Shown one piece after another: positions 3,445-31,278 of a stretch of 64,000 nt of DNA (within the stretch, counting starts at the first letter, position 1; the number at the start of each line of letters is the position of its first letter). The stretch is taken from positions 1,178,001 to 1,242,000 of the forward strand of contig WHVD01000013.1 of NCBI GenBank assembly GCA_015178975.1. Direction: 5' to 3'. Below the pieces are notes generated by a model. The model did no database searches. It saw nothing but the letters and a program-made list of their open reading frames with translations, and was not told the origin of the DNA. The stretch comes from Hysterangium stoloniferum. Its lineage: Eukaryota > Basidiomycota > Agaricomycetes > Hysterangiales > Hysterangiaceae. The position numbers were made by a program, and so were the translations under genes.

Positions 3445-4551
3445 TGTTACGACCGTGTCGTAACCCATGTCGCAACCCGATGGTCTCCGAGAATACTACC
3501 ATCTATCAATGTTCCAAGTTATTGATCAAGTTATCATTTCGGCAACCTTCGGAACACTGACACTGACGTATACCTTCACGGCGATCAAACCTCGTTTACG
3601 CCCCTGTCAAAATATACTCTACCATCTGGTTATGCTTTGATACGTCCCCTTTCATTATGATGATCCATTTTACTCTATGTTTCACATATGCCCATATATA
3701 CCTGTAGCCCGTGGACTATTCCCTTTTCTCGTAATCCCGCTCTTGGCTAAATCTCGGCTTCCGATCTTATCGAAACCTGCCGGTTCCTAGTCAAGCTTAT
3801 TTGTCAATGCCGTTTTCCGCTCTTCCCTTAGTTAGTAGTTTCTAGATGCCGATAATCCGTATATAAGACCCGCTGTAATGTAACTACTAGACAATCAGAA
3901 TATCAACTTAGAATATCAACTTAGAATATCAACTTAGATCGACTTAGATACCCTCTAATTTCCGACTCCATTATCTATTCACGACCACCACATTCCGACT
4001 CCATCCGATTTACGATTCAACCTACATTTACGACTCTCTCAATCTCCGACTCTCTCAGTCTCTGACTCTCTCAGTCTCCGACTCTCTCAGTCTCCGACTC
4101 TCTCAGTCTCCGACTCTCTCAGTCTCCGACTCTCTCAGTCTCCGACTCTCTCAGTCTCCGACTCTCTCAGTCTCCGACTCTCTCAGTCTCCGACTCTCAG
4201 TCCCCGACTCTCAGTCCCCGACTCTCAATCTCCAACTCTCGGTCTCCAACTCTCGGTCTCCGACTCTCGGTCTCCGACTCTCGGTCTCCGACTCTCGGTC
4301 TCCGACTCTCGGTCTCCGACTCTCGGTCTCCGACTCTTGGTCTCCGACCCCTCAGCCCAACCCTTGACTGATCCTTCGGTTTCCGATCGGTAGTTTACCG
4401 AGAGGTTTACTTGACAGGACTAGTTTCTGCCCGCCCAAAATTTAAGGACACCTGACGGTAACTTGCGAGGGCGCAGCACATAAGCTGAAGCCAAGTCCTT
4501 CCGTTCGGTCCCTGTCGGCCAGCTGACATCTGTCAGTTTCTGCTCTTAACA
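3445..4551 (+). repeat. Solo LTR, family B, inserted in LTR A
   Basis: An 1107 bp sequence running TGTTACGACC...CTCTTAACA, flanked by a perfect 5 bp target duplication agctc (3440-3444 and 4552-4556). No internal coding region accompanies it, so it is a solo LTR left by LTR-LTR recombination. A second B copy with fewer minisatellite units sits at 27943-28848. The conserved core GCGCAGCACATAAGCTGAAG lies at 4470-4490. Confidence 0.9.
4030..4350 (+). repeat. Minisatellite inside LTR B
   Basis: Tandem array of about 20 units. The first half is a 16 bp unit (gactctctcagtctcc) and the second half a 14 bp variant (gactctcggtctcc). The matching position in the other B copy (28505-28630) has only about eight units, so the array changes in length within the LTR family. 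Confidence 0.9.
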
Positions 4552-4556
4552 AGCTC

Positions 4557-20710: not shown

Positions 20711-21376
20711 CCTGAATGCCATGGATCTGGCATGTTCAGAGTTATAGTTGTGGGGGGAGCTGGGGTCGAGACATGAGTTTGATAATAAACTTGTTAGCCA
20801 GTATATATTTATTTATGCAAACATAGGAATGCTTATCATATTAAGCTCTTCCCATTTGTGAAAATATTTCCTTCAAAGGGCTCTTTGAGACGCCCTGAAG
20901 TACAGAACGTAGGGACCACAACCTCTGGCATGCCAGTGTGGGAATCATCCATGGAATACCCGTGGGGTATGCTGTATTCTTGTCAATAAACATAATTAAT
21001 TGTAGGAAAAGAACTTACATCATTTCGAAATTCGTGGACCTGCACTGATGGTCAAAATGTCTGTAATCATGGTCTTCCTCATGTCTGCATTCTGTGGTCC
21101 CATTATACCTATGTATAATCACCCTCGGCTTCTCTTTCCACATGGAACCTCTCTACCCAATACAGCACTCCTAGACCATAACAACATGTAGATCATTTTG
21201 GTATCATTGGTCATATGGATGCCCTATGAACAGTACCGGGAACCATAGCGGCACATGATTTCTTATCTTGTCATCTCTCACAACAATAGCGTTGATGGAG
21301 CATAGCGGCTGTTACCATGAGTCAGTAAATTTAAACATATATAACATACAATAGATAAAGATACTCACCCATGTTG
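20711..21376 (-). repeat. Dispersed repeat G, copy 0 (minus), distal part
   Basis: Matches, in inverted orientation, 34370-34730 and 59220-59570, the segment just upstream of the C2H2 ORF in the intact G copies. The match stops at about 20711, at ATCCATGGC, right at the start of that ORF, so the ORF itself is missing. The remainder of this copy continues at 31842-31912, beyond the LINE and chromovirus insertions. Confidence 0.75.
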
Positions 21377-21467
21377 GAGCACATCACATGAACACCCAGC
21401 ACAACTGTGTTCAGCCCTATTCTGCAAACATGTTGATTCCCTGCTTACCTCCTCCCAGTGCACCTCC

Positions 21468-22082
21468 TTGGAAATATCATGGGTCCCCGGCCACTCAGGC
21501 TTTCAAGGCAATGAACATGCCGACACACTGGCAAAGCAGGCCACCTCTGCCAGGCCAGTACCGCACTCGACTATCACTTGGGCCCGGGAAAGGGCCAAAG
21601 TCCACTCAGTTAGAGAATGGGGCAGGGATTGGGCTGCCAAACTGCACTCGAATGCCTCAGCTCAGGTCCTCACTAGCCCGCCATCACTCAAACTCTCTCC
21701 CATCCACAAGGACTTCCCTGGCTCCCAAGTGCAACACACCCGCCTCATACAAGCAATCACCGGGCATGGCTTCCTTGGGGAGTACTACTCTCACTTTCTT
21801 CCCAACCTCTCCACTGCCTGCCCATGTGGCTCTGCACCTCTCCAGATGTGCAAACACATCCTCACCAGCTGCTCCCTCTTTGAAGGACACCGCTCCCTTC
21901 TGTGCAAGGTCTCACGTGGACTCAACCTAGCCTTCCTCTTGGGCACGAAGTCAGGGCTCAGGGTGGTTTCTAAGTTCATTTTCCAAACTGCTGCCTTTGC
22001 AAAACAGCCTAACAGACCTCAGAACCCCATTTCGACCCAACCTGGCACACTTGAAACCACACAGACTCACGACCCACCCTAG
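21468..22082 (+). pseudogene. LINE C-terminal RNase H and zinc-binding region
   Basis: The reading frame contains the C-terminal part of a type I RNase H (WVPGHSGFQGNEHADTLAKQ, with the catalytic His and Asp of the last motif). About 95 residues later comes a Cys/His cluster, CPCG...CKHILTSCSLF, of the kind found at the end of Tad1/I-like LINE polyproteins. The RNase H upstream half, reverse transcriptase and endonuclease are missing because of 5' truncation. It stays open to 22082. The assignment to a Tad1-like clade is inference from the domain order in fungi. Confidence 0.8.
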
Positions 22083-22118
22083 AGGCCCCCTACCTTGCCA
22101 CGGACCTCCCACTTGACC

Positions 22119-22732
22119 TGTTAAGAACTGACTGACGGGCTAAATGTCAGGTAACTGACGGGGGCCGAACGGAAGGACTTGGCTTCAGCTTATGTGCTGC
22201 GCCCTCACAAGTTCACGTTGAATGTCCTTAGATTTCGGGCAGGTGAAGATCGGAGACCAAGGATGCAGACAGTGGGATACTTATAATAGAGCTAGGGGGA
22301 TGTTCTGAGTCGATATTCTGATTGCCTAGTAACTACAACTACAGCAGGTTCATATACAAGTAACAGGAATCTAGAAAATACTAATAGGGAGAAAGGCGGA
22401 AAATGGTATTAACAATAAGCTTGACTAGAAACGGGAGGCCAATGATAACCGAGAGTGGGACAATGGTAAAAGGAAATAGTTCAAGGGTTACATATATATA
22501 TAGACATATGTGAGACATAGTGTAAAACAGATCATCATAATGGAAAGGGACATATCAAAGCATAACCAGACAGAAAAGGCATGGTCGGGTTTGAATAACC
22601 AGGAGGGTATACATCAGCGTCGGGAAGCCGATGGCTTCTGAGATGTCAACTTGATTGAAGACAGACAAAATACTACAACGATATACCATCGGGGGCTGTC
22701 GGCTTGCGAGGGGTCACAACACAGTCATAACA
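22119..22732 (-). repeat. 3' LTR of the chromovirus (family D)
   Basis: 614 bp running TGTTAAGAACTG...AGTCATAACA on the plus strand. It has the core block (cttcagcttatgtgctgcgc on the plus strand at 22184-22203) and almost no minisatellite. The short purine-rich stretch ATGAGGGGATAC (minus strand, 22733-22745) next to it is a plausible polypurine tract. Confidence 0.92.
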
Positions 22733-22905
22733 GTATCCCCTCATTTGGCCGAAATCCCAAGGAGGCCAAAAATCTAGATCGTGTACGTAAAACAACGTCA
22801 GGTACAGGTTGTGTGTCAAAATGTCATGTGACTGGAAAAAATTTTGAATATAAAAATTGGAGGGTTACAAGGTGCTCGACTCTTCATCCTTTCCTTTCAA
22901 CCACG

Positions 22906-23909
22906 ATGTCATTGAACTCTGGGGCAAAAACCATCCCTGTCAGGCTGAAGGTAACCCCCTTGTCGGGTCTGAGCAGAATACCGAACACACAAGAACGTCG
23001 TCGCCAACTAGAGGTGAAGAAGAAGGTGCGCGAGGAGGAGGAACGTAAGGAGATGGAGGAGTTGAAAGCGATCAAGGCGGCTGAGGTGGAGGAGAAGAGA
23101 CGGGCAGAGGTGGAAGCTACACGCAAGCATCGGGAGGCCGAGCTCGCAAGGAAAAAACAGCAGGAGGTTGGTCGGGCCCGAGAGGAGGAGGCAAGAAAGA
23201 AACAAGAAAGGAAGGTAAGTCAGGAGAAACATCACACTGCGAATATCTACTAATGTTCTCTTCTCAGTGGAAGGCAGTATCGCCGTCGGCTCCAATGAAG
23301 AGGATGAGGAAGATGATGATGAGGTTGCAGGGCCTTCAAGCCCAAAGGTGCTTTTGTTATATATATTTTTTTGCTTTTACTAACTTTTAGTGACAGAGAC
23401 AAAAGGGGGCCCCCAAGGCGGGGCCCGAAAATGATCCAAGGTGCAACCACTGCACTGCTCGGAATCGAGCTTGCCATCCTCAGGCAAATGGTTGGGGCCG
23501 CACATGCCAAGAGTGTGCGGGTCAAAAACTCAGTTGCACCTTCCTGGGGGCCCACGGGAGTGCGACCTACGGGGAGTGCCAGATGGATGCGATGGAGGAA
23601 CAAAACCGCCTTATGCAGTTATACTTCTCGGAAACCACTCGGCGGCAAACCGAGTCTCTGCGACAGCAGGGACTCTTTCAAGAGCAAATGTGACTGCTGG
23701 GAGTTGCTATTGGGGAGCAAACAGCCATGCTACAATGGGTCAGGGGGCAGCTTGAGCAGTACCTCGAGTTACCCAGTTTGGACGAGGTTGAGCCAGTTAG
23801 AACTTTGGAGGAAGTTGGAGGGAAAGGAATATCGGCGGCCATCAGTGAAGCGCAAGCTTTGGAGGCCGAGGAGGAAGGAGAAGTAGTAGAGGAAACTTTA
23901 GATAGTTAA
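22906..23909 (+). pseudogene. Antisense accessory gene of the chromovirus: coiled coil plus Zn2Cys6-like motif
   Basis: A plus-strand gene opposite to gag-pol, between the integrase stop (24046) and the 3' LTR. ATG 22906 opens a first exon to 23214: about 30 residues, then about 70 of nearly uninterrupted Lys/Glu/Arg heptads (KKKVREEEERKEMEELKAI), a likely coiled coil. GTAAGT at 23215, a TACTAAT branch region and AG at 23267 bound a first intron. An acidic exon follows (NEEDEEDDDEVAGP), then a second intron (about 23348-23396, with a TACTAAC branch point). The last exon holds six cysteines from 23442 spaced C-x2-C-x6-C-x10-C-x2-C-x6-C, inside the Zn2Cys6 rule. Next come a Gln-rich helical part and an acidic tail ending at 23909. 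TGA at 23691 interrupts it, and the frame across intron 1 needs a non-consensus donor or a one-base correction, so this copy is probably dead. Function is unknown; a DNA- or chromatin-binding role is inference only. Confidence 0.65.
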
Positions 23910-24045
23910 CAAAATAATAATTTGACTTAATCCCTTTTTTTTTTTTGGGCGTGAATTGAACTTGAAGAGCATCGGATAGTGAGACTTGATAACTTAAGTT
24001 CGGCTTGAGGTTTGAGGATCGAAAATGTCAGGTGCTGTGTGAAAA
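23910..24045. other. Junction between the antisense gene and the pol stop
   Basis: Short convergent region with a T10-11 run at about 23936-23946 in plus sense, between two genes that end facing each other. Confidence 0.5.
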
Positions 24046-27000
24046 CTAAAGAGAGTCTAAAGGACCGGGTTTGTTGGGGTATTCTTGATGGAAACCTAAC
24101 ACGATTTCTGACGCATTGCCGAGTTCAGTGGCTAGGATCCAGGAAGTTTCTTCATCTGTACCTTCATAGCCAGTCCATTTGACCAAATAAAGTAACTTGC
24201 ATGGTTGCCTGCGATTGTCGATCTTGGAGTCTAGGATTTCCGATATTTCAAATTCGGGTTCTCCGTTGATAATTACGGGTGGTGGTGGTGGTTGTAAGCG
24301 ATCTGGTATAGTGTTAGCAATGCATGGTTCTAACATAGATACATGGAACACCGGGTGGACTGCACGCATGTTGTCGGGAAGCCGAAGTGTCCATGAAAGC
24401 GTGCCAGCTTGTGCTATGACTTCAAAAGGACCTAAATACTTTTCAGAGAGCTTTTTAGAAGGTCTAGTGGTTTGGAAAAACTCGGCTTTAACGAATACTC
24501 GATCACTGATTTTAAAATTGGGAGGTGGGAGCTGATTTTTATCCATGGACCGTTGGTATCGCTCTTGGGCCATTGCGATTGTTTTCCAAAGTTCTTGATG
24601 TAGCTTGTCTAGATTAGTAATGAAGTCTTGAGCACGGGTGGATGCGAGATCACGTTCCGGGTGGATTGCGATATTCGGGTTGTAGCCTTTGAAATGCCAG
24701 TAGTGGCATTTGGGGCATTGTTGTATGCGAATTCAGCTAGCGGTAGTAATGATTTCCAATTGTCTTGTTGATAATTGCAATAGACACGAATGTATTGTTC
24801 CAAAGTTTGGTTCATGCGTTCGGTTTGGCCGTCGCCTTCCGGGTGGTAGCCCGAAGTGAAATGCAGTTTCATGTCTAACACTTTTCCAAGTGACCTAAAG
24901 AAATGAGAGACAAACTTGGAACCGCGATCGGATGTGACATGTGACGGAATGCCGTGCTTTGAAAACACATGGGTGACGAATAGTTCAGCCAACTGTACAG
25001 ATGTTATTGTATCATAAGTTGGAATGAAAATGCTTTGCTTTGAGAGCCGATCCACAACAACTAGGATTGCTGTATGTCCTTCAGATGCCGGTAGGTGCTC
25101 GATGAAATCCATAGAAATTGAGTTCCAGGGTTTTTCTGGTATCGGTAATTGTTTGAGTAGGCCATATGGTTTGTGTCGCTGTGATTTAGAGTGTAAACAA
25201 GTTGTACAAGATTTACAATAGTGCTTAACGAAAACTCGGAGGCCGGGCCAAGTATATTCTCTGCGAATGAGTGCGAGAGTCTTGTTGAGGCCAAAATGTC
25301 CCGAGATTGGGTGGGCGTGTTTATGTTGTAGGATTTGCAGCTGAAGGGTGTCGGAATCTGGTACATAAATGTGATTGTCGAGTCTAATGAAACCTTGTGC
25401 ATCTAGCGACCATCGGGGTTGATCAGGGTCGGATGGATTATCGAGGTGTGCTTTGGTGACTGGGTCTGGGTCTAATGGAATTGCCGATAGTATATCTTAA
25501 TGTAACTTTTCGGTATCCATAAGGATAACACTGCGCATGACTGGATGTATGAGGTAAGTTGCTCGGATTGACGCAGACAGTTGTTCTGATGAAAACATAG
25601 GCTTAAAGTTATGCGGATTAACTGTGGTGTAGTCGCTACTCCCCTCTTTAGGATAGACGTCCCATTGTCTAGTCATAGAGTCAGGTTTCCCGCCAAGGCA
25701 GCTGGGGCGGAAACAGATAATCATATTGAAGGCGGAGAGGTATTCAGACCATCAGGCTTGCCGATGGGTGAGTAGTTTTGTGGTTGAAAAGTAAAGCAAG
25801 TTTTTATGGTCGGTTATAACGTCTGTCGGGTGAGCCAACCCTTCCAAATAATGTCTCCACATTTTGAAAGCTTCAAATATTGCGAGTAGTTCTTTATTGT
25901 GAACATTGTAATTGAGTTCAGGTGCTGAAAATGTGTGAGACAAAAAAGCTACTGGGTGGACTTCACCGTCGGTGTCCAGAATGGACAATATCGCAGCAAG
26001 TGCATAATCTGAGGCATCAGTTTCCACAATGAGTTGAACATCAGGTTTCCAGTGCGACAATATAGGGGCAGACGTGAACGCACTTTTCAATTCTTGGAAT
26101 GCCAATCAGCATTCCTTGGAGAAGTTCCACGGGGTGTCTTTACGAGTAAGACGGGTGAGCGGAACAGTAATTTTTGAGTAGTTGTGAATGAAACGACGAT
26201 AAAAATTAGCGAAACCTAAAAAGAACTGAATGTCTTTGACTTTTTGGGGTTCCGGCCAATCTTGAATGACTTGAATTTTAGAATTGTCCATGCGGAAACC
26301 GTCGGGTCCTATCATGAAGCCTAAATATTCAACTGTGTCGACATCAAAAAAACATTTTTTTACCATTCGCAAAAAGACCATGTTTTCGGAGTCTTCGGAG
26401 AACTTCACAGACATGTTCATTGTGAAGTGTAGGGTCTTCAGAGAATATGAGAATATCGTCTAAGTACACAATGACGTAGACATCGGGGAGGTCGGAAAAG
26501 ACGTCGTTGATAAAACGTTGAAAAGCCGATGGAGCATTGGTGAGGCTGAAAGGCATCACTAACCATTCAAAGGAGCCATAGCAAGTGCAAAAAGCCGTTT
26601 TCCATTCGTCGCCTTTGGCGATCTGAACCAAATGATAGGCATGTTTGAGGTCTATCTTTGTATAAATTCGGGCCTTCTGAGGGGCATCAAGTAAATCGGA
26701 GATTAGTGGTAACGGGTACTTATCTTTTCGAGTGATCGCATTTAGTCCTTGAAAGTCAATGCAAAGCTGAAGGGAACCATCCTTTTTCTGAATGAACAGG
26801 ACAGGGGCTCCATAAGGAGATTTTGAGGGTCGGATAAATCCTATAGCCAAATGTTCATCCAAGAAATCTCGGATAGCCAATAACTCAGACTGTGAGAGAG
26901 GATAAACTGGGTCTAAGGGCGGATGTGAACCTTCTTCAATATTGATTTTCAAATTGTAGGGCCTATGAGGGGCAAGATGATCAACTTTTTGTTTATTGAA

Positions 27001-27722
27001 GACGTCAGCAAAATCGTGGTATTTTTCTGGAACACCTTCCAAATCTGCGACAGGTTTGGTTACCGGGGTCGCAAAGTGACTGGTAACTTCGTCAACTTTG
27101 AGTTTGACGGAAAATGCTTGGGAACCTTCCAACTTAATGGCTCTCATAAAAGCTGCGGCATTTATTAGAGAGATGGAGGGCGGAGAGCTTGGATTTGCCA
27201 CGGGGGCCAGAGGTGCCGTAAAGGCCATATTTGCCGAAACAGGCGGAGATGGAGCAGTTGTATCAGGTGCTGACAGGGTTTGGAAATGGATACTGCCCAA
27301 TACCCAATCAATCAATGGATTGTAATGGGTGAGCCAGTTATGTCGTAAAACCACGGAGCAGCTCGAGTCCAACTGTGTTACGAAAAACGCAACGGATTGA
27401 AAAGTTCCACAAGGGAACCGAATTTGGAGTTTGCAGGCTTGCGAGATTACAGAGTTTGAGGGACCATCGAAAAGTCATAGCAGAATCAGATCTATTGCAT
27501 AGGTGTTTAAGAGGTTTTTTCGGGAGAAATTTTTATCTATAAAACAATGGGTTGAACCTGAATCTACAAGAGCTCGAAAAACAAGGCTCCCAAGGGGTTC
27601 CAAAGTAAGATTTACAAATAAACCATTCGGATCATGAAGTGCAGATGCATTAAGATGACAACTTTCCGGTGTGCGGGGAGATTTAATACAACTCTCTAAC
27701 TGCACGGAATCCAGAGAGTTAC
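24046..27722 (-). pseudogene. Chromovirus Pol: protease, reverse transcriptase, RNase H, integrase, chromodomain
   Basis: The frame opens at 27722, one base back from the gag frame, immediately after the gag stop. In order: retropepsin active site VDSGSTHCFID (about 27565-27534); reverse transcriptase (27000-26110) with KKDGSLQLCIDFQGLNAIT and the catalytic VYLDDILIF near 26460; RNase H with ETDASDYALAA near 26010; integrase zinc finger (H-H-C-C, CKSCTTC near 25210); catalytic Asp in SMDFIEHL, Asp in TSDRGSKFV and Glu in DGQTERMNQ; and a chromodomain at the end with YLVKWTGYEGTDEETSWI (24200-24130). In-frame stops lie at about 27475, 26105, 25751 and 25496, and frameshifts near 26345 and 24690. 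The domain order and chromodomain define it as a chromovirus. Chromodomains of this class guide integration to marked chromatin. Confidence 0.95.
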
Positions 27723-29933
27723 TTAATCATTCTTCGATTCGGCAGCCAGCTTGGCTGGTTGCGAAGTTGAGGCCGTATTGGCCGATCGGGCTTTTGTGGC
27801 TTTCAGGCATGCAGCGACTTGGTGTCCAGGATCTGTGCATAACAAGCACAGATTGTTGTCCATTCGGCGTTGCTTTTCCTGTGGTAGAAGCTTGCCGTCG
27901 GGGCCAAGTTTGTCAGTAAGGTCGGGTTTGTCTTGAGACTTGTGTTACGACCATGTCGTAACCCATGTCGCAACCCGATGGTCTCCGAGAATACTACAGT
28001 CTATCGATGTTTCGAGTTATTGATCAAGTCATCATTTCGGCAACCTTCGGAATACCGACACTGACGTATACCTTCACGGCGATCAAACCTCATTTACGCC
28101 CCTGTCAAAATATACTCTACCATCTGGTTATGCTTTGATACGTCCCCTTTCATTATGATGATCCGTTTTACTCTATGTTTCACATATGCCCATATATACC
28201 TGTAGCCCGTGGACTATTCCCTTTTCTCGTAATTCCGCTCTCGGCTACATCTCGGCTTCCGATCTTATCGTAACCTTCCGGTTCCTAGTCAAGCTTATTT
28301 GTCAATGCCGTTTTCTGCTCTTCCCTTAGTTAGTAGTTTCTAGACACCGATAACTTGTATATAAGACCCACTGTAATGTAACTACTAGGCAATCAGAATA
28401 TCAACTTAGATATCCCTCTAATTTCCGACTCCATTATCTATTCACGACCATCACATTCTGACTCCATCCGATTTGCGATTCAACCTACATTTACGACTTC
28501 AACCTCTAATCTCCGACTGTCTCAGTCTCCGACTCTCTCAGTCTCCCGACTCTCTCGGTCTCCGACTCTCTCAGTCTCCCGACTCTCTCGGTCTCCGACT
28601 CTCTCAGTCTCTGACTCTCTCAGCCTTCAACTCTTGGTCTCCAACCCCTCAGCCCAACCCTCAACTGATCCTTCGGTTTCCGATCGGTAGTTTACCGAGA
28701 GGTTTACTTGACAGGACTAGTTTCCGCCCGCCCAAAATTTAAGGACACCTGACGGTAACTTGTGAGGGCGCAGCACATAAGCTGAAGCCAAGTCCTTCCG
28801 TTCGGTCCCTGTCGGCCAGCTGACATCTGTCAGTTTCTGCTCTTAACAACTTGCTCGACTGTTTGCCTTTGCCTTTTTTGTCATTAGGCCCTTTGTTTTC
28901 GGACTTCTTATCGGAGTTCGAGTTGCCACTGTTGTTGGTGTTTTGATTACCAGACTTGTTGGCATTCTTATTGTCCAATGATTTCTTGTCCGAGGGGTTT
29001 TCGTGACTAATTTCCGAACGTCATTCCCAGTATCAGGCATCCGCATTTTGGGCTTTTAGGCACATGAGGGGGAGAGTCTTCGGCTTGCCAGTCTCTCCCT
29101 TGGAAACCTCATCTTTGAGGCGAGATGGGAGGCCAGAGTAAAACTGGTAACGGAGGGCCAAATCGCCCCAGTCACAATGCGCGGTGAGGTTGTTGAACTG
29201 GACGATGTAATTGGTGATGTGCTGGGTGTCTTTCATTTTGAGATTAGAAAGCATGGTCTCAGCATTGCCAGTCTGATCGTAAGGGCCAAAGTTTGTTTCA
29301 AGTTCTTCAACGAAAGCATCCCAATCGTGAAGCCAATCGGGATCTTCCAAGGTGAGGCCGGAGAATGCGGGTTCAAACCAGGCTGCTGCGGAATCCTTGA
29401 CGTAAGAGTGTGAAGTTTACCTTTCGGTCATCAGTCGCAAAGGCAGCTGGGTGGTCCCGAAAGTTGAATCAACATTGCATAAGAAATGTCGGTAATTTCT
29501 TCAGGTTTGAACAGGTAAACGGTTTGGGTTTGTTGACTTGGGGTTGCCCAGGTTCTTTTTCCTTTGTATTGTTTTTGAGGAATTCATTAAGGAATCCTAG
29601 GGTACCTGAGAACAATTCCCATGTTTCGTCGGGATCGAGAGCCAGTTTGTGTTTTGCAGATTTTTTAGAACCACTGGCCTGAGGTGCTGGTTGGTCGTTA
29701 TCCTCAGGTTCGGGTTCCGGAGCTGATTGGTTGTTATCCCCTTCAGGTGCTTCAGGTTCGGTTGCTTCAGTAACTTCTTCAGCATCACCAGTAATTTCCA
29801 CAAAGCGGGATTCTTCAGAGGTTCCTGGTTGCAGGGTTCTTGAAATAGCTCGGGCTGTATACAGGAAAGGAGACTTGAGAGTGGAATATTCTGCTTCACC
29901 ACTTGGCTTGGCATCTTTCTTCCTTGGGGGCAT
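27723..29933 (-). pseudogene. Chromovirus Gag, interrupted by solo LTR B
   Basis: The ATG at 29933 starts MPPRKKDAKPSGEAEYSTLK, followed by an acidic Pro/Glu-rich region. The central Gag domain is at 29350-29033 (WDAFVEELETNFGP, LKMKDTQHITNYIVQFNNL, FYSGLPSRLKDEV), and an Asn/Lys/Ser-rich linker reaches 28849, where LTR B begins. Beyond the LTR (27942-27723) Gag finishes with a zinc knuckle CLLCTDPGHQVAAC (CX2CX4HX4C) and stop TAA at 27723. Frameshifts after 29469 and near 29030 break this copy. The product would be the capsid/nucleocapsid precursor. Confidence 0.9.
27943..28848 (+). repeat. Solo LTR, family B, inserted in chromovirus gag
   Basis: 906 bp running TGTTACGACC...CTCTTAACA with a perfect 5 bp target duplication acttg (27938-27942 and 28849-28853). 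Nearly the same as 3445-4551 but with a shorter minisatellite (28505-28630). It lies in opposite orientation to its host element. Confidence 0.93.
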
Positions 29934-29970
29934 GGTTGACGTGAAATGCGAGTGTGAAATCAGAATATAC

Positions 29971-30954
29971 TGTTAAGAACTGACTGACGGGCTAAATGTC
30001 GGGTAATTGACAGGGGCCAAATGGAAGGACTTGGCTTCAGCTTATGTGCTGTGCCCTCACAAGTTCACATTGAATGTCCTTAGATTTCAGGCGGGTGAAG
30101 ATCGGAGACCGAGGTTGGAGGCTGAGGTCAGAGACCAAGGTTGGAGGCTGAGGTCAGAGACCAAGGTTGGAGGCTGAGGTCAGAGACTGAGGTTGGAGGC
30201 TGAGGTCAGAGACCGAGGTTGGAGGCTGAGGTCAGAGACCGAGGTTGGAGGCTGAGGTCAGAGACCGAGGTTGGAGGCTGAGGTCAGAGACCGAGGTTGG
30301 AGGCTGAGGTCAGAGACCGAGGTTGGAGGCTGAGGTCAGAGACCGAGGTTGGAGGCTGAGGTCAGAGACCGAGGTTGGAGGCTGAGGTCAGAGACCGAGG
30401 TTGGAGGCTGAGGTCAGAGACCGAGGTTGGGGGCTGAGGTCAGAGACCGAGGTCGAAGACCAAGGATGCAGATGGCGGGATACTTATAATAGAGCTAGGG
30501 GGATGTTCTGAGTCGATATTCTGATTGCCTAGTAACTACAACTACAGCAGGTTCATATACAAGTAACAAGCATCTAGAAAATACTAATGGGGAGAAAGGC
30601 AGAAAACGGTATTAACAATAAGCTTGACTAGAAACGGGAAGTTTATGATTAGTTCGGAGGCCGATGATAACTGAGAGCGGGACTACGATAAAAGGAAATA
30701 GTTCAAGGGTTACATATATATATAGACATATGTGAGACATAGTGTAAAAGGGATCATAATAATGGAAAGGGACATATCAAAGCATAACCAGACAGAAAAG
30801 GTATGGTCGGGTTTGAATAACCGGGAGGGTATACATCAGCGTTGGGAAGCCGATGGCTTCCGAGATGTCGACTTGATTGAAGACAGACAAAATACTACGA
30901 CAATATACCATCGGGGGCCATCGGCTTGCGAGGGGTCACGACACAGTTGTAACA
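29971..30954 (-). repeat. 5' LTR of the chromovirus (family D) with expanded minisatellite
   Basis: 984 bp, starting TGTTAAGAACTG and ending AGTTGTAACA on the plus strand. Similar to the 614 bp 3' LTR except for a tandem array that accounts for most of the extra length. Confidence 0.93.
30108..30455 (-). repeat. 26 bp minisatellite inside the chromovirus 5' LTR
   Basis: About 13 units of 26 bp (on the plus strand gaggttggaggctgaggtca followed by gagacc), very homogeneous. The paired 3' LTR has essentially one degenerate unit at the same place. Confidence 0.93.
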
Positions 30955-31278
30955 TGACCTACACCTCCTATCTCCTGGACACAGAAAGTCTCCTTCTAGC
31001 TATTTGTATTTCCTTTGTGTACTTATATCCCCTTCACATGCTTGTATTATCCTCTTGTGTCTCTTTCTTGTTGTGCCTACAACCCCCACTTCCCACCTCA
31101 CACTGAAAACCCAGACTGCTTCCTCACACCAAAATCCCTCATACCCACGTAGCTCACTCGGCACTTTGTAATTCCATAGCATATGTTAGTGGGGACACCA
31201 TGCCCCTGGCTGCAGTTAGTCCTTGTTACTTGAAGTGGGATACAAATATAACAAAAAAAAAAGAGCACATCACATGAC

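Follow-up and report, generated by a model that had tools for sequence, protein, structure and literature searches.

A conserved, spliced antisense gene with Zn2Cys6-like cysteine spacing in chromodomain Gypsy retrotransposons of Hysterangium stoloniferum

The antisense gene brtn of the Boty-like retrotransposons of Botrytis cinerea and Sclerotinia was reportedly described by Zhao et al. in 2011. According to excerpts of the published accounts, Boty-like elements of Botrytis encode a chromodomain in gag-pol (PMC4227169) and carry brtn between pol and the 3′ long terminal repeat (LTR) (PMC7264820, PMC4227169, PMC8365987, PMC5987419). Antisense open reading frames (aORFs) also occur in plant retrotransposons, among them Grande gene23, RIRE2, PvRetro13 and Retand TRP28 (excerpts of PMC7264820 and PMC11963269); as far as these excerpts go, they likewise lie antisense between pol and the 3′ LTR, are retained in most copies and are suspected of nuclear or DNA-binding roles, and PMC7264820, in its excerpted text, gives the function of the plant aORFs and of Boty’s antisense gene as unknown. 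In human T-cell leukemia virus (HTLV), HBZ and APH-2 are nuclear regulators encoded by antisense transcripts that are spliced and lie close to the 3′ LTR (excerpt of PMC3185765). Here we describe a three-exon antisense gene carried by a chromodomain Gypsy element of the basidiomycete Hysterangium stoloniferum. The element lies in a stretch of 64,000 nucleotides (GCA_015178975.1, contig WHVD01000013.1, positions 1,178,001 to 1,242,000), referred to below as the window, and genome-wide searches for copies were made in the source assembly, which comprises 111 Mb in 554 contigs.

By layout, the gene belongs with the antisense accessory ORFs found between pol and the 3′ LTR: it sits on the plus strand between the chromodomain and the 3′ LTR, antisense to gag-pol. 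In this respect brtn is its closest counterpart, being an extra antisense gene between pol and the 3′ LTR of a fungal Gypsy element with a chromodomain, although the hosts of Boty are ascomycetes and the likeness rests on layout, BRTN being known here by description. A previous sequence-only reading of the window had stated that no described chromovirus has an antisense partner; Boty, with its chromodomain and brtn, contradicts this (excerpts of PMC7264820 and PMC4227169). In the open-access literature searched, no basidiomycete element with such a gene was found in print. The plant aORFs differ in that their hosts are plants, Retand is no chromovirus, and the fungal gene has a cysteine cluster together with a pair of conserved introns. 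HBZ is a parallel in layout and in the action suspected for the product, but its protein, a bZIP protein, is unrelated. The parts of the gene in the window are as follows.

22906..23214, plus strand: exon 1, with the ATG and a Lys/Glu/Arg-rich helical region (copy alignment)
23215..23267, plus strand: intron 1, phase 0, GTAAGT..CAG, 53 nt (identical ends in 29/29 aligned copies)
23268..23347, plus strand: exon 2, acidic, then Ser-Pro-Lys, 80 nt (copy alignment; frame lost here)
23348..23396, plus strand: intron 2, phase 0, GT..YAG, 49 nt (copy alignment; 47-57 nt among copies)
23397..23909, plus strand: exon 3, with a zinc-cluster-like domain, a second helical region and an acidic tail (copy alignment)

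The features that the sequence-only reading had picked out, namely an antisense gene of three exons and two introns with a Lys/Glu-rich exon 1, an acidic exon 2 and a six-cysteine spacing, are all present in the sequence. The predicted product of about 300 residues comprises a Lys/Glu/Arg-rich helix, an acidic stretch, basic stretches, six cysteines, a second helix and an acidic tail, and the basic stretches around the joints of exons 1, 2 and 3 could serve nuclear import. We aligned 29 copies from 30 fetched loci, excluding L029, whose gene is interrupted by some 630 bp of inserted sequence; this locus (G000:C35:1263606-1267273) is a 96-97% identical copy on the same contig, beyond the window and in the opposite orientation. 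Both introns run from GT to AG at matching positions in all 29 aligned copies. When near-duplicates were removed, leaving 16 copies for the comparison of lengths and codon positions, exon length differences were mostly multiples of three, intron 2 varied freely in length, and variable sites were concentrated on third codon positions.

For exon 3, Nei-Gojobori comparisons (45 pairs from 10 copies) gave ratios of nonsynonymous to synonymous change (dN/dS) of 0.08-0.34. In a comparison of reading frames, the medians in the gene frame were 0.20 within and 0.23 between subfamilies, the latter ratios being rough where synonymous change nears saturation. Four other frames of exon 3 gave 0.98-1.61, and exon 1 gave 0.23 and 0.10. 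A dN/dS near 1 with loss of the cysteines, the outcome that the sequence-only reading took as incompatible with a conserved frame, was thus not what we found: the exon 3 ratio is about 0.2, and none of the six cysteines varies among 13 exon-3 rows, which were picked for the full pattern or an open frame. These ratios indicate that the gene is under purifying selection at the amino-acid level.

Some observations pull the other way. The window’s own copy is broken: its exon 2 measures 80 nt, compared with 81 nt in 26 of the 28 other aligned copies (the remaining two have 90 and 66), so that the frame is lost, and exon 3 contains an in-frame TGA at 23691-23693. The mirrored frame -1 also gave low ratios (0.26 and 0.35), yet with about nine stops per pair. 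Stops or frame loss affect 22 of the 29 copies, the window’s included, while the other seven are open from start to stop without an internal stop, one of them starting with TTG instead of ATG. Because the window copy is itself broken, the reality of the reading frame rests on these seven; the earlier proposal of a coding gene is supported, with the correction that the window copy is not intact. We regard it as nearly certain that this is a real, conserved, spliced antisense gene. One locus, L009, has a tandem triplication, in frame and with stops, inside the coding stretch of the zinc region. Among differences from the column majority of the gene alignment, C>T or G>A changes at CpG make up 41 of 102 in the window copy and 10 of 64 in L011, which suggests a CpG-biased, possibly methylation-linked decay of gene copies.

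The gene travels with the element. An integrase-chromodomain follows it where expected in all 30 loci fetched, and the inner LTR part lies upstream of it in 29 of 30 (in L002 only as a short, distant piece; none in L012). First-look searches yielded 661, 506 and 944 candidates, overlapping, for three gene versions, 150 of each being scored, and 3549 candidates for the chromodomain, the best 150 of which were compared with 186 listed gene places (at least one of these, on C3, is a partial gene). The gene, whole or partial, lay antisense and 3′ of the chromodomain in 125 of those best 150 matches, at a median distance of 109 bp. Absence of the gene from other copies, a further outcome that would have told against the sequence-only reading, did not occur.

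Chromodomain matches at 83-85% identity led to a second, diverged group, group B. In its loci L092-L094 the antisense gene and the chromodomain are some 95 bp apart; the gene has a Lys/Glu-rich exon 1 (interrupted by a stop in L093), an exon 2 ending in GPSSPK, CX2CX6CX10CX2CX6C in exon 3, and two phase 0 introns of 54 and 48 nt at places matching those of the window family. The zinc regions of the two groups match in a profile comparison (E 6.7e-8, 36% identity over 39 columns), in which the remainder of exon 3 is unalignable. Group B exon 3 lacks an internal stop in 112 of 150 scored matches (from the 944 candidates), and three pairs within the group give dN/dS values of 0.16, 0.20 and 0.55, the last from only 2% synonymous change. 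Of 126 chromodomain matches (150 minus 24 rows belonging to the other group), 98 have the gene beside them at a median of 97 bp, all antisense and none on the same strand.

The association is incomplete, which speaks against an obligatory partnership: 25 of the best 150 chromodomain matches in the first group and 28 of the 126 in group B have no gene among the matches listed, in part because those lists do not hold every gene place, and gene loss is seen beside long open pol frames (1286 residues on C14). Some gene-less elements thus accompany an open pol, and therefore the gene is not always required in cis. In the five of the 25 gene-less cases examined, four retain the gene start with internal loss and one only the gene end; such deletion and truncation remnants imply that the gene is ancestral and has sometimes been lost. 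We conclude that a clade of fungal chromodomain Gypsy retrotransposons carries it as a stable accessory gene. Beyond this genome, a plasmid collection gave no match, and gene relatives were not found among viral contigs, a collection that is uninformative here, an integrase control likewise being without match. In a database of 5.8 billion proteins, 8000 candidates were scored with a profile of the gene, A1, and none was related at E<=1; integrase gave 5136 matches, and Trametes cinnabarina and Scleroderma citrinum are the two species named among the 120 integrase relatives listed. This absence is weak evidence for a lineage restriction, because short-exon genes may go unpredicted and the search needs exact 5-residue words.

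The gene and pol do not keep the same company from copy to copy. L020 and L061 are 98% identical in pol (24330-24880) and 66% in the gene, and L020 and the window copy 89% in pol and 85% in the gene. Elements with pol 97-98% identical at the DNA level carry gene versions that are only 66-67% identical, a pairing that excludes great age with unequal constraint as the cause of the discord. At informative sites L020 sides with the window copy in the gene (249:62) and with L061 in pol (6:57), and the same switch was present in five copies tested (Fisher p 1e-22 or lower, the sites not being independent). The gene tree resolves two clades at 100/100 support; the pol tree mixes the same rows and is poorly resolved, with L065, whose pol piece is poorly aligned, on a long branch. 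The right border of the exchange lies near 24280-24360, and the left, which is unsharp, falls within the LTR, where U3 carries mixed sites (37:27 for L020). In these comparisons the gene behaves as an exchangeable cassette that changes pol partners by recombination, and template switching between co-packaged RNAs would yield such an exchange. Since the gene and the promoter-proximal U3 adjoin, their joint exchange is by itself no proof of joint function.

The six cysteines led the sequence-only reading to propose a fungal Zn2Cys6 transcription factor.

23442..23537, plus strand: six cysteines, C-x2-C-x6-C-x10-C-x2-C-x6-C (pattern search)

This pattern occurs once in the window’s six frames and in 0 of 60 mononucleotide shuffles. 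In both groups the spacing (x2, x6, x10, x2, x6) agrees with the Zn2Cys6 rule CX2CX6CX5-12CX2CX6-8C, and fungal Zn2Cys6 factors (PF00172) share with the gene product an identical cysteine spacing and a helical region after it. By hhalign, comparison with a profile of 10 of 13 host Zn2Cys6 domains gave E 1.2e-6 and 90.8% probability, the cysteines driving much of the score. Other results count against membership. Pfam Zn_clus (PF00172) had no match at E<=10 in the window family, in the full protein or the 13 exon-3 rows; a 51-residue piece of group B scored 13.5 bits against a cut-off of 21, and group B exon 3 scored 8.9. A hidden Markov model of the 13 host domains gave 11.1 and 10.3 bits, each reached by 34 of 500 shuffles with the cysteines fixed, and likeness to the host domains apart from the cysteines appears weak. 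A search of solved structures matched no Zn2Cys6 structure and gave no meaningful match. Zn2Cys6 clusters usually stand near the N-terminus of fungal transcription factors, unlike the cluster here, which is mid-protein after a charged helix. The earlier proposal stands as to the exact spacing and is less certain as to family likeness beyond it; Zn2Cys6 membership of the putative zinc cluster is unproven. Pfam scans of the full protein and the 13 exon-3 rows likewise gave no match to Transposase 28 (PF04195, TRP28) at E<=10 and none to SMC or other domains of the plant antisense proteins. Ancient capture from a host Zn2Cys6 gene is a possible origin. The genome has 42 PF00172 places, none among the listed gene places; two short host stretches (G000:C56:27459-45410 and G000:C115:74483-75050) hold several Zn_clus matches in series, possibly multi-cluster proteins.

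Upstream of the gene, the 174 bp from the LTR to the ATG contain blocks shared among subfamilies, including the following.

22733..22742, minus strand: polypurine-tract-like stretch adjoining the 3′ LTR, conserved (sequence)
22747..22771, plus strand: conserved block, GGCCGAAA repeated after 9 bp, a candidate cis site (subfamily comparison)
22849..22855, plus strand: TATA-like box, 57 bp before the ATG, TATA-like in other subfamilies (sequence)

The second GGCCGAAA copy has decayed in the window, and GTCATGTGAC is present in the same region in only part of the copies. Group B has a single GGCCGAAA, and TATAAA 56 bp before an upstream in-frame ATG. Polypurine-tract function alone could account for part of the block conservation; the TATA-like box and the conserved block together make a candidate antisense promoter for the gene. 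HBZ transcripts, according to the excerpted source, begin inside the 3′ LTR, whereas the TATA-like box here lies outside it.

The element around the window’s copy occupies 22119-30954 on the minus strand with TGACC on either flank. It has a reverse transcriptase, an integrase, a C-terminal chromodomain, LTRs and a target-site duplication, and is a chromovirus (chromodomain Ty3/Gypsy).

22114..22118: target-site duplication TGACC, left (sequence)
22119..22732, minus strand: 3′ LTR (repeat comparison)
24046..24732, minus strand: end of pol, Tf2-1-like SH3 and chromodomain (Pfam)
24609..25496, minus strand: integrase, H2C2 zinc domain and core (Pfam)
26344..27474, minus strand: reverse transcriptase (Pfam)
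29971..30954, minus strand: 5′ LTR (repeat comparison)
30955..30959: target-site duplication TGACC, right (sequence)

Pfam scores for pol were 101 bits for RVT_1, 38.8 for rve, 65.6 for Integrase_H2C2 and 28.3 for Chromo (cut-off 25.1), and pol of the window copy is broken across several frames. The two LTRs are about 90% identical across their alignable part, the 5′ LTR measuring 984 bp versus 614 bp for the 3′ LTR because of a tandem array of 52-bp period at 30099-30453. An LTR-like piece in the opposite orientation is nested within the element (27943-28849), with a similar piece at 3445-4552, and to the left of the element lies an open frame judged RNase-H-like by eye only (GHSGFQGNEHADTLAKQA, 21345-22082).

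As to function, the sequence-only reading had suggested that the product regulates the element, binds its LTRs or directs integration, and we keep these roles as suggestions. We give about an even chance to the product being an element-encoded nuclear DNA-binding regulator, in a layout like that of HTLV HBZ and the plant aORFs. A TATA-like promoter of its own, next to U3, would drive the gene; the spliced mRNA would be translated and the protein would enter the nucleus, where its cysteine cluster would bind zinc and DNA. Probably as a coiled-coil dimer, the protein would then control how the element is transcribed, through U3 or the promoter of the gene, or act on host transcription. The sense genomic RNA, unspliced at the gene since the introns are on the antisense strand, would carry it into the next copy. 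More tentatively, the product may be a sequence-specific factor of Zn2Cys6 type, encoded on the antisense strand and recognizing the adjacent promoter and U3, in which case regulator and promoter would form a cassette that is swapped between pol backbones.

Other explanations fit the data less well. The protein might be an integration or nuclear-import factor, bound to chromatin or to the pre-integration complex and directing cDNA to sites instead of regulating transcription; its basic stretches, acidic segments, coiled-coil-like parts and zinc-like cluster would also fit such a tether. The gene stands with a chromodomain integrase in all 30 fetched loci, and the antisense protein of plant Grande is nuclear according to the excerpted PMC7264820, but the chromodomain already provides a targeting route and pol 97-98% identical beside genes 66-67% identical speaks against tight co-adaptation with integrase, and we consider this factor unlikely. 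That the product is an accessory protein with a structural or nucleic-acid-chaperone role, either Gag-like or a packaging factor, whose cysteine cluster binds RNA, seems more doubtful still: it is highly charged, has a zinc-like cluster and matches no transcription-factor domain above cut-off, yet CCHC knuckles follow a different cysteine spacing, and the spacing here matches Zn2Cys6, as does the largely cysteine-driven hhalign result. Slightly less probable again is that the antisense transcript itself matters, through double-stranded RNA, silencing or interference with sense transcription, the protein being secondary. The tail-to-tail arrangement of gene and pol would favor this, and an RNA role is discussed for plant aORFs in the excerpted PMC7264820; against it stand the dN/dS of 0.10-0.23 in exons 1 and 3, the third-position variation, and exon lengths that change by threes beside a free intron 2, and this amino-acid constraint argues against RNA as the sole function. 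That a host gene or another mobile element landed once in the window copy is scarcely credible, dense though nested repeats are across the window, given the position and orientation shared by 125 of 150 matches to the chromodomain in one group and 98 of 126 in the other, on which one-off capture or nested insertion was rejected.

With hundreds of candidate copies, many with open frames and close relatives, conserved introns and a recognizable cysteine cluster, the function of the gene is directly testable, the protein offering a soluble domain, the upstream region a short candidate promoter block, and the genome natural pairs of elements distinguished chiefly by their cassette. If the product is a regulator, these fungal retroelements would possess a separately arisen HBZ-like control gene. 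If, moreover, a Zn2Cys6 regulator cassette is being swapped, subfamilies would use a common replication machinery but have distinct regulatory specificities.
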